Source: Actinoallomurus soli (lineage in GTDB: Bacteria; Actinomycetota; Actinomycetes; Streptosporangiales; Streptosporangiaceae). Taken from it: 64,000 nt of DNA. The notes under the pieces are model-generated. The model saw only the letters and a list, made by a program, of their open reading frames with translations. It made no database searches and had not been told where the DNA came from. Of this stretch, positions 44,553-49,162 are shown in pieces. Position numbers and translations under genes: made by a program. Position 1 is the first letter of the stretch, and each line of letters starts with the position of its first letter. The stretch is taken from assembly GCF_024055715.1 (NCBI RefSeq), contig NZ_JAMXMV010000010.1:62001-126000 (forward strand), read 5' to 3'.

Positions 44553-45797
44553 GTGTCCGCGTCTTCCGCCGCCGCGCAGGTCGAGCGGGTGTTCCGTGAG
44601 GAGTACGGCCGCGCGGTGGCCGTCCTGGTCCGCGTCTTCGGCGACATCGGCGTCGCCGAGGAGGCGGTCCAGGACGCCTTCACGGAGGCGCTGCGGCGCT
44701 GGCCGGCCGCCGGGGCACCGCCGAGCCCGGCGGGATGGATCATCACGACCGCGCGCAACCGGGCGGTCGACCGGTTGCGGCGCGAGGCCTCGCGCGCGGA
44801 CCGGCACGCCCAGGCCGCCCTGCTGTACGCCGCCGACCAGCCGCCCGAGGAGGGCCCGGTGCGCGACGACCGGCTCCGTCTGATGTTCACCTGCTGTCAC
44901 CCGGCGCTGGCGCCCGCCGCGCGGGTCGCGCTGACGCTCCGGCTCTTGGGCGGCCTGACCACCGCGGAGATCGCTCGCGCCTTCCTGGTGCCCGAGCCGA
45001 CGATGGCGCAGCGACTCGTCCGCGCCAAGGGGAAGATCCGCGACGCGGGGATCCCGTTTCGGATCCCCGGCGAGGCGGACCTGCCGGACCGGCTGCGAGG
45101 CGTGCTGGCCGTCGTCTACCTGATCTTCAACGAGGGCTACGTCGCCGGCTCCGGGGACCGGCTGGTCCGGGAGGAGCTGTGCGGGGAGGCGATCCGGCTC
45201 GGGCGGCTCCTGGCCGAATTGATGCCGGACGAGCCCGAGGTCGCCGGCCTGCTCGCGCTGATGCTGCTGCTGCAGTCGCGCCGGGCGGCCCGTACCGCGC
45301 CGGACGGGTTCCTCGTCCCGCTGCCCGAGCAGGACCGGAGCCGGTGGGATCGGGACCTGATCGCCGAGGGGCAGGACCTCGTCCGCCGGTGTCTGCGGCG
45401 CGACCGGCCGGGGCCGTACCAGATCCAGGCCGCGATCAACGCGGTGCACAGTGACGCGCCGGACGCCGCCGCCACGGACTGGGGACAGATCCTGCGGCTG
45501 TACGACCTGCATGTCGCGCTCGCCCCGAGCCCGATCGTGGCGCTCAACCGCGCCGTCGCCGTGGCCGAGGTCGCGGGGCCCGGGGCGGCGCTCGCGCTCG
45601 TCGACGACCTGGACCTCGACCGGCATCACGTGTACCACGCCGTGCGGGCCGACCTGCTGCGCCGCCTGGGCCGTACGGGCGAGGCCGAGGCGGCGTACGA
45701 GGCGGCGATCGCGCGCACCGGGAACGCGGTCGAGCGCGACTTCCTGCGGCGCCGCGTCCGGTCGCTCACCGAGGCGTCGGAGCCCGACGGCCGCTGA
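44553..45797 (+). CDS. ECF42-type sigma factor with C-terminal TPR-like domain
   Basis: The 414-residue protein has ECF regions 2 ([19 protein letters not shown]) and 4 ([20 protein letters not shown], then [14 protein letters not shown]), followed by a long helical domain (DUF6596-like, from about residue 180). The typical ECF42 C-terminus and the YciI partner upstream support the class. No anti-sigma gene is adjacent, as expected: the C-terminal domain itself is thought to control activity. Confidence 0.92.
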
Positions 45798-45854
45798 GGA
45801 GCGGTCATTCCCCCGAGGGCCCCCGCTCGGGCCCGACGCCGCCGTCGAGGCGCG

Positions 45855-46136
45855 TCAGGCGAAGAGGATGCGGAGGCGCTCGGACTCTCCGTTCGCCAGC
45901 TGCATGCGGAAGACGGTGCCGCGCGCCGTCTCGTCGCTCAGGAACTTGAACACGGCGAGCGCCCGGCGCACGGCCTCGCCTTCGGTGATCCCGTGCTCCT
46001 CGGCGAGCGTCTCGGCGGCGGCCATGGCCTCTCCGGTCAACGAGATGCTCACACGATTTCTCGGCCGGCCGGTATGCGCGGAAAAGTCGCGATCTTCGCC
46101 TTCGTGGCTTTTGGTGCGTTCCAATGGCGTGATCAT
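45855..46136 (-). CDS. Ribbon-helix-helix (CopG-like) DNA-binding protein
   Basis: The 93-residue protein has NRVSISLTGEAMAAAETLAE, then EHGITEGEAVRRALAVFKFL, matching ribbon-helix-helix repressors. It is convergent with the ECF42 gene and stands opposite to the two-TM/wHTH/UMPK operon. No toxin gene is adjacent, so an orphan antitoxin or a stand-alone regulator is possible. Confidence 0.82.
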   Translation of the reverse strand: MITPLERTKSHEGEDRDFSAHTGRPRNRVSISLTGEAMAAAETLAEEHGITEGEAVRRALAVFKFLSDETARGTVFRMQLANGESERLRILFA

Positions 46137-46330
46137 GAGTCAACCGTACGGGAATGGTGTCGAGCGCACAATGCTGAATACCACAGATCACGGTAACAGT
46201 GACGTTCCCTGCGGCACGTTCACCGCAAGTTTCGCTGCCATGCATGCCATTACCGCAGGTGATGTGGTTGCGAAGGCATGGTGAATACCCCATGATGACA
46301 CGACATGCGCTGCCGAGGGGAGCGTCGAAG

Positions 46331-46654
46331 ATGTCGTGTAACGTACCTCACCCGATCGAAGAGCCGGACCCGGCCGAGGAGTCGGAAATTCCGCGCGACG
46401 ATCGCCCGCATTACTTGATCTCCGATCTTCCGAAGAACGGATCGGTGACGCGCGAACCCGACATCGACGCGAAGACGCGCCATCTGCTCGCGGTCATCCT
46501 CTCGACCTCGTCCTCCGCGACCCTCCTCCTCGTCGTGATCGGAGGGCTGCTGGGCAGGTTCGACGCGAGCCTCGTCGAAGGCGCCATCACGGCGCTGAGC
46601 GCCTCGGCCGGCCCCGTGGCGGCGTTCTTCTTCTTCCGCCGCAACCGCCCCTGA
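46331..46654 (+). CDS. Small two-TM membrane protein
   Basis: The 107-residue protein starts at ATG 46331 with GGGGAG nine bases upstream. The N-terminal 60 residues are acidic (PIEEPDPAEESEIPRDD) and then come two hydrophobic segments (LLAVILSTSSSATLLLVVIG and ALSASAGPVAAFFFF). Function unknown. It precedes a winged-helix regulator by 19 bases and a UMP kinase paralogue, so the three form an operon. Confidence 0.75.
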   Translation: MSCNVPHPIEEPDPAEESEIPRDDRPHYLISDLPKNGSVTREPDIDAKTRHLLAVILSTSSSATLLLVVIGGLLGRFDASLVEGAITALSASAGPVAAFFFFRRNRP

Positions 46655-46673
46655 CCCCCTGGGAGACCTCGTC

Positions 46674-47693
46674 ATGCCGGAATCCACGCTCGACCCGATC
46701 TTGGCGGCCCTCAGCTACGAAGTGATCGAATGGCTGCGGTCATTCCGGTACGACCGGTCGTTCAAGGAGATCGCCGGCCGGTTCGGCAGGGACGAACGGA
46801 CCGTGTCCCAGCAGCTTCAACGACTGGACCAGGCGTTCTGGGACACTCAGCAGGTCCATATCCTCGATCGGGAGTTCGGGCGTAAGACCTATCGGCTCAC
46901 CAGAGCGGGTGAGGCATTCGTCAATCGCCTCGAGGTGATACCGGAGATGACCCGGGCGGCGATCGACGCCGCCACGACCGTCAGCCGGCGTATTCCCATT
47001 CTGTGCACTTCGAACTGCCTGTCCTATTTACGGGACCTCAGCGACGGGCTCGGAGTCGCCTCCGGCTTCAACATCGTCCCGGAGAGCCGGCGCACCGCCG
47101 ACGTCGACCTCACCTTTCCCGAGAACGGCCCCGACCGGCACATCGGCGTCTGCCTCTCCTCGGCGATGATGTCGTCCGAACAGGATCCGCGGGTCGGGTC
47201 GATCGCCCAGTGGAACGAGCGGGTCGAGGTCCTCGTCCTTCGGATCGATCGGTTCAAACTGCTCTGTGTCGGTGACCGGCAGCCGCGGGAGCCGGTCACC
47301 GTTCGTGAGCTCGTCGAGGACGGCATGACCTTCATGACCCCGCGCGGCGGCGTCGTGTGGGACTTCCTCAATCGCAGCTTCCCCGGATGGTGGAAGCTCC
47401 GGCCGTTCCAGTACGTCCAGGTCGGCGACCTGGACTTCGGGCTGAGATGTCTGGCCAGCGGCCTGGTCGAACCGGCGGCGATGGTCGTCCACGGCGTGGA
47501 GCTGGAGGACCTCGAGTCCTACGGGCTCGACCATCCCCGTCTTCTCGACTTCGCCGTCGGCGGCTCACACCGGCTGGTCGCCATCACGGGCGTCTTCCGC
47601 GTCCGTCACGAGAACCCGGACGACCAGGACCCCTACGACCTGGTCTGGAAGACCGCCCAGTCGCTCTGGGCGGAGAAGGAGCGCACGCTGTGA
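46674..47693 (+). CDS. Winged-helix regulator with LysR-like effector domain
   Basis: The 339-residue protein has an N-terminal winged helix (SFKEIAGRFGRDERTVSQQL, then QRLDQAFW) and, from about residue 105, an alpha/beta domain resembling the LysR periplasmic-binding fold (RIPILCTSNCLSYLRDLSDG and VVWDFLNRSFPGWW). It is not a standard LysR: the HTH sits differently and the sequence is diverged. Its stop overlaps the UMP kinase start by GTGA, so the two are translated together. A metabolite-sensing regulator linked to pyrimidine nucleotides is a reasonable guess. Confidence 0.72.
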   Translation: MPESTLDPILAALSYEVIEWLRSFRYDRSFKEIAGRFGRDERTVSQQLQRLDQAFWDTQQVHILDREFGRKTYRLTRAGEAFVNRLEVIPEMTRAAIDAATTVSRRIPILCTSNCLSYLRDLSDGLGVASGFNIVPESRRTADVDLTFPENGPDRHIGVCLSSAMMSSEQDPRVGSIAQWNERVEVLVLRIDRFKLLCVGDRQPREPVTVRELVEDGMTFMTPRGGVVWDFLNRSFPGWWKLRPFQYVQVGDLDFGLRCLASGLVEPAAMVVHGVELEDLESYGLDHPRLLDFAVGGSHRLVAITGVFRVRHENPDDQDPYDLVWKTAQSLWAEKERTL

Positions 47694-48412
47694 CCATCGC
47701 ACCCCGCTACCGGCGTCTCGTTCTAAAGGTCAGCGGCGAATCACTGGGTTCCCGCGACGCTCCCCTCGACCCCGAGCGGATGGGAGAGGTGGCCCAGTCG
47801 GTCGCCGCCATCCGCGCCATGGGAGTGGTCGTCACCCTCATCGTCGGCGGCGGCAACATCTACCGCGGAGCCCAGGCCACCCGATGGCACCTGGACCGCC
47901 CGCAGGCCGACGCCGTCGGCATGGCCGCCACCGCGGTCAACGCGCTGCTCCTCGACGGCATGCTCGACACCATGGGCGTTCCCGCGCACATCTTCGCCCG
48001 CGGGCCCGCCAGCGGCAGCGGCAACCTCTACCACCGCGAAGAGGTGCGCTCCGTGCTCGCCAGGAACGAGGTCGTGATCCTGGCCGGCGGGATGGGCGTG
48101 TCGGGGTTCTCGACCGACGTCCCCGCCGTCCACGCGGCCATCGACACCATGGCCGATGTGATCGTCATGGCCAAGCACGGCGTCGACGGCGTCTACGAGA
48201 AGGACCCGCGTCGGCACTCCGACGCTCGCTTCCTGCCGTCCGTCACCGCGTCCGAGGCGCTCCGGCGGAACCTCCGCATCATGGACGCGAGCGCGCTGAC
48301 GCTCGCCCGCGACCACGGCAAGACCATCCACGTCGTCGGCGCCGCCGATCCGAACGCCGTCAAGTACGCGGTCGAGGGCAAGGAGATCGGATCCATCGTC
48401 CAGCCGCTCTGA
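47690..48412 (+). CDS. UMP kinase paralogue (PyrH-like)
   Basis: The 240-residue protein has LKVSGESLGS, IVGGGNIYRGAQATRW, GMAATAVNALLLDGM, and VMAKHGVDGVYEKDP near the end, all matching bacterial UMP kinase. Housekeeping pyrH lies between tsf and frr, which are absent here, so this is probably a second copy. GTG 47690 overlaps the previous stop. It may sense or control UTP/UMP together with the regulator, or serve a nucleoside-related pathway. Confidence 0.85.
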   Translation: MTIAPRYRRLVLKVSGESLGSRDAPLDPERMGEVAQSVAAIRAMGVVVTLIVGGGNIYRGAQATRWHLDRPQADAVGMAATAVNALLLDGMLDTMGVPAHIFARGPASGSGNLYHREEVRSVLARNEVVILAGGMGVSGFSTDVPAVHAAIDTMADVIVMAKHGVDGVYEKDPRRHSDARFLPSVTASEALRRNLRIMDASALTLARDHGKTIHVVGAADPNAVKYAVEGKEIGSIVQPL

Positions 48413-48420
48413 ACGCCCGG

Positions 48421-48500
48421 ACGCGCGCGGTCGCGTACGCCCTGCGGCCAAGGCGGGCGAACGCGCGCGGCCACGTACGCGCTGCGACTAAGGTGGGCGA
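48421..48500. repeat. Two copies of a 40-bp direct repeat before nucS
   Basis: 48421-48460 and 48461-48500 share 34 of 40 bases, with ACGCGCGCGG and GTACGC conserved and an AAGGYGGGCGA end. The second copy ends two bases before the nucS GTG, so its AAGGTGGGCGA overlaps the Shine-Dalgarno. The repeat fills the gap between the UMP kinase and nucS. Confidence 0.85.
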
Positions 48501-48502
48501 CC

Positions 48503-49162
48503 GTGCGCCTCGTCATCGCCCGGTGCAGTGTCGACTACGCCGGCAAGCTCACCGCCCACCTGCCCATGGCTCCACGGCTCATCCTGATGAAGGCCGACGG
48601 CAGCGTCTCCATCCACGCGGACGACCGCGCGTACAAGCCGCTGAACTGGATGAACCCGCCGTGCACCCTCAAGGAGGAAGAGGGCCGGTGGACCGTCACG
48701 CACGGCAAGTCCGGTGAGCAGCTGATCCTGACGATCGAGGAGATCCTGCACGACTCCAGCCACGAGCTGGGCATCGACCCGGGCCTGCAGAAGGACGGCG
48801 TGGAGGCCCACCTGCAGGAGCTGCTGGCCGAGCACATCACGACGCTGGGCGAGGGCTGGAAGCTGATCCGCCGGGAGTACCCCACGGCGATCGGGCCCGT
48901 CGACATCCTGTGCCGGGACGACAAGAGCGCGACGGTGGCCGTCGAGATCAAGCGGCGCGGCGAGATCGACGGGGTCGAGCAGCTCACGCGCTACCTGGAG
49001 CTCCTGAACCGCGATCCGCTCATCGCGCCGGTCCGCGGGATCTTCGCGGCCCAGGAGATCAAGCCGCAGGCGCGGGTGCTCGCCGCGGACCGTGGCATCG
49101 ACTGCGTCACCCTCGACTACGACGCGCTGCGCGGCATCGAACGGGACGGCACGCTCTTCTGA
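48503..49162 (+). CDS. nucS: NucS/EndoMS mismatch-specific endonuclease
   Basis: The 219-residue protein has an N-terminal dimerisation domain and a C-terminal nuclease domain with [19 protein letters not shown] and [10 protein letters not shown], the D-x-E-x-K catalytic set. It ends in DGTLF, a tail that in this family is involved in sliding-clamp contact. It replaces MutS/MutL in actinobacterial mismatch repair. GTG 48503 is the start. It is downstream of the 40-bp repeat. Confidence 0.95.

Follow-up and report, generated by a model that had tools for sequence, protein, structure and literature searches.

A UMP kinase paralogue with changed loops, in a tight operon-like array with an atypical regulator and a small membrane protein in Actinoallomurus soli

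Background

Enzymes that are tied to transcription regulators have been described in well-studied bacteria. In B. subtilis, GltC is inhibited by glutamate dehydrogenases (PMC6794564), and in E. coli, where pyrH is essential, the UMP kinase PyrH has been proposed to act with PepA at the carAB P1 promoter (PMC6245113). The UMP kinase (UMPK) of S. aureus is described with D75, I136, N138, Y140 and T143 around UMP and with basic positions that are used for effectors (PMC12847342), while E. coli PyrH, as reported in the T. thermophilus paper, binds GTP at a different place (PMC12404492).

Here we describe a locus within a 64,000-nucleotide stretch of the Actinoallomurus soli genome (contig NZ_JAMXMV010000010.1, positions 62,001 to 126,000; hereafter the window, in whose numbering all coordinates are given). 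An earlier note on this DNA had pointed to a UMP kinase paralogue encoded together with a regulator and a membrane protein. As with GltC and glutamate dehydrogenase, or with PyrH and PepA at carAB, an enzyme is here tied to a transcription regulator; in those systems the tie was shown or proposed from experiments, whereas here it comes from gene order alone.

Results

A tight array of three genes

The interval 46331-48412 is filled by three co-directional genes on the plus strand, and a further gene lies upstream on the opposite strand:

45855-46136, minus strand: ribbon-helix-helix-like protein, 93 aa, with a Pfam RHH_1 match below cut-off; divergent from the operon
46137-46330, no strand: presumed shared control region, lower-G+C intergenic DNA between the divergent ribbon-helix-helix gene and the operon
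46331-46654, plus strand: gene 1, 107-aa membrane protein
46674-47693, plus strand: gene 2, 339-aa regulator with an N-terminal winged helix-turn-helix (HTH)
47690-48412, plus strand: gene 3, 240-aa UMP-kinase paralogue

The gap between gene 1 and gene 2 is 19 nt, with GGGAG preceding the ATG of gene 2, and the GTG start of the kinase gene overlaps the TGA stop of the regulator gene by 4 nt (GTGA), with GGAG upstream of the GTG. This spacing shows a tight operon-like array, and, judging by the GTGA overlap, kinase and regulator are translationally coupled. No sigma-70 consensus was found in 46137-46330, which gave short repeats only, and a consensus search of 45760-48560 gave no promoters and no terminators (0.3 and 0.8 expected by chance).

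The kinase is a second UMPK of its genome

Gene 3 matched TIGR02075 (pyrH_bact) over its whole length. Its own genome holds five Pfam AA_kinase matches and, at E ≤ 1e-20, two matches for UMPK, and the other UMPK is the housekeeping pyrH at L003 (G000:C59:286813), between tsf and frr, which were named from their sequences rather than by family search. Because this other copy lies between tsf and frr and scores 310.4 bits against TIGR02075, where the window kinase reaches 208.7 bits and stays under the equivalog cut-off of 243.9, we ruled out that the window copy is the housekeeping gene; the case foreseen in the earlier note, a genome with no second pyrH, is thus not the case here.

A fold model of the kinase, built with 12 aligned relatives, had a mean pLDDT of 86.5, and among the solved chains closest to it the best 50 listed are UMP (uridylate) kinases. 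The model is least sure at residues 101-110 and 131-140 (block means of 64 and 60, falling below 50 at 136-138), and these low-confidence blocks fall in the two changed loops described below.

Two other identities were considered and discarded. Molybdenum storage protein is a relative of UMPK, and no such name occurred among the 18 kinase matches at E ≤ 0.001. Pattern scans with the kinase found 16 loci in genome_contigs (27-39% identity) and none in viral_contigs, and a phage collection gave 16 matches at 29-36% identity; we rejected a phage origin after inspecting six of these 16, of which one, a Salmonella contig, carries tsf-pyrH-frr, another carries pyrH-frr, and four are unannotated.

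A second PyrH clade in the family

A UMPK search of 120 family genomes returned matches in 118, with one match in 108 and two in 10; most genomes of the family thus have a single UMP kinase. Besides the window's own, 13 of the 30 loci that we fetched (13/120 genomes) form a separate second PyrH clade, here called PyrH-2; this placement was made from the 30 fetched loci, the remaining matches of the 120-genome search being absent from the tree. Nine of the 13 come from two-match genomes, and four (G341, G178, G191, G338) from genomes in which a PyrH-2 copy was the only one found. A PyrH-2 query against 198 phylum genomes at 1e-60 matched 107, each once, and among the matches listed none exceeded 51% identity; judged by identity, this sample gave no sign of the clade beyond the family. 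Our literature search, directed at second copies of pyrH and at operons joining a LysR regulator to UMP kinase, found no published name for a second PyrH clade and nothing on PyrH-2. In the accessible text of PMC4403831, 'pyrH2' occurs inside a primer name, and in that of PMC8190616 pyrH serves as a core marker gene.

In a 44-row tree (three short rows dropped) the window kinase groups with PyrH-2, with support of 88/78 and a branch of 4.31. A 35-row tree of chosen rows, to which gamma-proteobacterial and other pyrH were added, places a branch supported at 96/91 between PyrH-2 plus the kinase and the 25 others, with a kinase branch of 3.49. Trees in which the kinase was forced to group with gamma-proteobacterial or own-family housekeeping rows were not rejected (p = 0.0552 and 0.055), and its identity to PyrH-2 (34-39%) is hardly above that to housekeeping copies (33-38%). 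The kinase is a fast-diverged relative of UMP kinases, and its relationship is most likely to the second PyrH clade of the family. It shares with PyrH-2 a one-residue insertion before V-D-G, present in 13/13 members (2/29 phylum rows and S. pyogenes 1z9d carry it too), and it differs from the clade in its neighbours and in its effector region, where five PyrH-2 rows, assessed like the kinase, retain 5 to 6 conserved columns out of 6 to 7.

The neighbourhoods of PyrH-2 have features of their own. A DNA polymerase A-like protein adjoins PyrH-2 in 3/3 of the loci L044 (G341), L046 (G337) and L048 (G338); in L046 and L048 a bpMoxR-type AAA ATPase also adjoins it, followed in L048 by a DUF2201/VWA protein. 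These neighbourhoods are possibly a multi-gene cassette in one genus. At L053:4772-6157 (G182), an HD-domain protein directly precedes PyrH-2.

Retained catalytic residues and two changed loops

Residues K13, S15, G55, R59, D74, T142 and D172 of the kinase are identical in 76/76 comparators, and Y169 in 75/76; these retained residues align with active-site residues of the T. thermophilus and S. aureus UMPK (PMC12404492, PMC12847342). The uracil-recognition loop, G-x-G-x-P-[YF], reads GMGVSG in the kinase: P138 is replaced by S (P in 76/76 others) and residue 139 by G (Y or F in 76/76). In our mapping, the equivalents of the S. aureus UMP-site residues are D74, M135, V137, G139 and T142.

To define highly conserved columns, we took those in which at least 95% of 70 other rows carry one residue (n = 50), having dropped L064 and L069 (long or archaeal) and L070-L072 (short); 29 of the 30 phylum loci were usable. 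The kinase keeps 35 of these 50 columns, with 16/20 in residues 1-95, 0/6 in residues 96-128 (effector loop and helix), 6/7 in residues 129-147 (uracil loop) and 13/17 in residues 148-240. Losing 6/6 in the effector region against 9/44 elsewhere has a hypergeometric chance of 3e-4, with region limits chosen once the alignment had been inspected. Twelve other rows, assessed by the same criterion, keep 5 or 6 effector columns out of 6 to 8. When six more rows were included, three of them gamma-proteobacterial, 44 columns were left, of which the kinase keeps 32, with 0/4 in the effector region. Outside both loops, the kinase carries R149A and E152D, where R149 and E152 are present in 70/70 others.

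The earlier note had suggested that the operon might link pyrimidine nucleotide level to transcription. Such sensing is not supported; at the positions that are basic for effectors in S. aureus UMPK (PMC12847342), our motif mapping finds H100, E117, E118, S121 and E127, though R125 is still basic. Gamma-proteobacterial PyrH shares several of the effector-region changes. Loss of allostery in the kinase is possible from the alignment, and we leave it at possible because gamma-proteobacterial rows depart at several of these sites and the GTP site of E. coli PyrH differs.

Overall, the window kinase resembles PyrH (TIGR02075) in fold, length and phosphate- and ATP-site residues, whereas it differs in its sub-cut-off score, its position away from tsf-frr and its replaced uracil-loop P and Y/F. 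From this pattern of residues we judge that it most likely still transfers phosphate and that its acceptor or control has probably changed. A reading of plain redundancy would instead make it a spare UMP kinase, under a regulator, that would raise UDP supply or replace PyrH when the housekeeping enzyme is inhibited. The whole-length UMPK match and fold, the retention of known phosphate and ATP residues and the existence of second PyrH copies, of more normal sequence, in 13/120 family genomes would all suit such a spare enzyme, but a score below the pyrH equivalog cut-off, the replacement of uracil-loop residues that 76/76 others keep and a kinase branch of 3.5-4.3 changes per column would not, and we hold redundancy to be unlikely, if still worth keeping in mind.

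The regulator and the membrane protein

Searches with the regulator matched only its own genome among 150 order genomes (at 0.001) and among 396 phylum genomes (at 1e-4). Eight of 341 family genomes matched at 0.01, namely its own and seven weak ones (best 4.4e-5, 23% identity). Within the genus, six of seven other genomes had no match at 0.01, and the match in G158 (0.0077) falls in a frame that holds a stop. None was found in plasmids, and peptide patterns, which reach close relatives only, gave none in genome_contigs or viral_contigs.

Four of the seven weak outside matches (L007, L009, L011, L012) are LysR-type, with HTH_1 above the Pfam cut-off in 4/4 and LysR_substrate in 3/4, L007 showing the latter at 0.0045 only. 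Of the remaining three (L008, L010 and L013), L013 reads by eye as a transporter. The regulator itself has neither HTH_1 nor LysR_substrate among its Pfam matches at E ≤ 0.1 and is 21-26% identical to the intermediate LysR proteins. L007 is a member of a group of long LysR-like proteins, which 14 of 200 family genomes match at 1e-8, 11 of them strongly. Using a profile built from nine proteins of this group (L102 and L108 were left out for an over-long frame), we found the regulator at E 9.2e-5, versus 0.35 for the best of 1000 shuffles; the score comes mostly from the C-terminal part, and the HTH part does not reach significance by itself (i-Evalue 3.1). A single-sequence fold model of the regulator was useless (pLDDT 35.7).

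Through the intermediate LysR proteins, then, these alignments do place the regulator as a homologue, a remote one, of LysR-type regulators. The label 'atypical winged-helix regulator' in the earlier note was fair, and 'remote LysR-type relative' would be a reasonable, sharper name. Like LysR-type regulators, the protein has a winged HTH at its N-terminus and, behind it, a part that can be aligned with the LysR effector domain by way of relatives; unlike them, it is 339 aa long, has extra wing residues and makes no direct match over Pfam cut-offs. LysR-like regulators of about 350 aa with an extended wing region (L098-L108) are scattered over the family, with 11 strong matches in 200 genomes.

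Two hydrophobic segments are seen in the gene 1 protein. The clear one spans approximately residues 52-74, with a Kyte-Doolittle mean of up to 2.28, and the weaker one approximately residues 80-104 (up to 1.57). It had been labelled a two-TM protein; one transmembrane segment is certain, and the second is probable. No family was found for the 107-aa protein in Pfam, NCBIfam, PHROGs or PADLOC at the thresholds used. Seven of 338 family genomes matched it at 0.01, its own and six weak ones (best E 8.2e-4); the six lie in other, longer frames, and reading L114 gave no lead.

Conservation of the set

The three-gene set was found once, in its own genome, with the regulator searched in 150 genomes of the order, 341 of the family and 396 of the phylum, and the membrane protein in 338 of the family. 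By tblastn (E ≤ 0.01), there were no relatives of the regulator or the membrane protein in the 13 PyrH-2 neighbourhoods or at 16 other UMPK-like loci, while the kinase, as a control for the same search, was found in 29/29. This check is independent of the simple gene caller, which failed to call the window kinase and the PyrH-2 of L056. The earlier note had named a lack of conservation as grounds for refutation, and within the genomes and loci searched we saw no conservation of the set.

The same loci bear on the idea of a trigger enzyme, in which the kinase would directly bind the LysR-like regulator and report its own ligand state. The translational coupling of regulator and kinase would favour it, and there are precedents in GltC with glutamate dehydrogenase and in E. 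coli PyrH in carAB control. However, relatives of the regulator are missing from all 13 second-PyrH neighbourhoods at the tblastn threshold given above, and the 14 L007-type regulator loci are likewise without a UMPK within about 1.5 kb on either side (0/14). We consider direct binding of this kind improbable.

An accessory stretch upstream of nucS

Comparison with a same-genus genome (G155) delimited the stretch in which the operon lies:

45768-48447, about 2.68 kb: stretch unaligned to G155; the sigma gene ends inside it, its last 30 bases being different from those in G155

G155 aligns up to 45767 and again from 48448 onwards, and has about 60 bp between these two points. In G155, nucS comes straight after an ECF sigma gene that shares 88% identity with the sigma gene of the window (44553-45797). 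Besides the differing end of the sigma gene, the stretch contains the three genes of the operon and the divergent ribbon-helix-helix-like gene, whose product matched 3 of 150 genomes at 1e-5 (its own and two weak ones). All eight genus genomes have nucS, and none of the four proteins of the insert was found near it in six genus regions (tblastn E ≤ 1; L094 holds 99 N, and G156 was left out). In G159 the gene before nucS looks by eye like a 3-hydroxyacyl-CoA dehydrogenase; the place upstream of nucS therefore varies in the genus. GC3 is 0.84 in the ribbon-helix-helix gene, 0.85 in the membrane protein gene, 0.86 in the regulator gene and a nearly normal 0.92 in the kinase gene; of six neighbours, the sigma, nucS, DUF3224, SDR and ABC genes have 0.94-0.96 and YCII has 0.90. 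We infer that 45768-48447 is an accessory insertion, gained here rather than lost in G155; loss there could account for the absence.

There is no transposase among the four gene products of the insert. The region 45600-48700 has 29 inverted-repeat pairs, of which one imperfect pair (45753-45775/48403-48425, 78%) lies near both edges; we gave it no weight, since an exact core of 9 nt, as in this pair, was also reached in 146 of 1000 shuffled versions of the edge zones. The right edge of the insert has a 40-bp tandem duplication (48418-48497, 83% identical) that closely precedes nucS.

An acquired stretch might also be neutral or decaying cargo, devoid of present function, with a kinase that is drifting. 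The occurrence of the set in one genome only, the fast divergence of the kinase and the loss of conserved residues beyond the two loops too (R149 and E152, for example) are what drift would leave, but all three frames are intact, with coding GC3 bias and start signals, 35/50 conserved columns are kept, including the catalytic ones listed above, and the losses are densest in the effector region; decay seems to us improbable. A phage-defence or nucleotide-signal system, which the earlier note had raised together with nucleotide second-messenger turnover, would suit the accessory position, the small membrane protein, the nucleotide-type kinase and the weak similarity, in PADLOC, between a CARF_TM model and the winged helix of the regulator (E 5.1e-4), but PADLOC models gave nothing for the kinase, the membrane protein or the ribbon-helix-helix protein and none of the seven neighbouring proteins scanned resembles a defence gene. 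Neither defence nor second-messenger turnover is supported, and we regard such a system as very improbable. The product of nucS weakly matches PADLOC PDC-S models (best 5.5e-5), probably via its nuclease fold.

Discussion

Gene order, overlap and family searches confirm what the earlier note had observed, a genuine second UMP kinase paralogue that is tightly coupled to an atypical regulator and has a small membrane protein upstream, and they support its interpretation in part. The explanation that we prefer, with a probability of roughly 0.4, is that the locus is an acquired accessory cassette that regulates itself and whose kinase is active, with its acceptor or its control changed. The LysR-like regulator would read a small ligand and would most likely control its own operon from 46137-46330, and it would perhaps also control the divergent ribbon-helix-helix gene. 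Translational coupling would keep kinase and regulator in step, and the membrane protein may anchor or export. The kinase itself would phosphorylate an acceptor that is either other than plain UMP or handled under different control; if its acceptor or control has indeed changed, the substrate or product of the kinase is therefore a natural candidate for the ligand of the regulator.

A more specific proposal, which we think doubtful, is that a UMP kinase has been turned to another acceptor, such as some modified pyrimidine nucleotide or another kind of small molecule, and is free of GTP/UTP control, in a one-operon sensor whose LysR-like regulator would read the kinase substrate or product.

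What is unusual at this locus is that a UMP kinase, otherwise intact, has changed loops, and the interest is modest since the set was found once; the second PyrH clade, in 13/120 family genomes, is the broader and better supported point. A copy that keeps the phosphoryl-transfer residues while its uracil loop and effector region are changed would show how a UMP kinase can take a new acceptor or come under new control, and because it is paired with a regulator, the ligand could be read out genetically.
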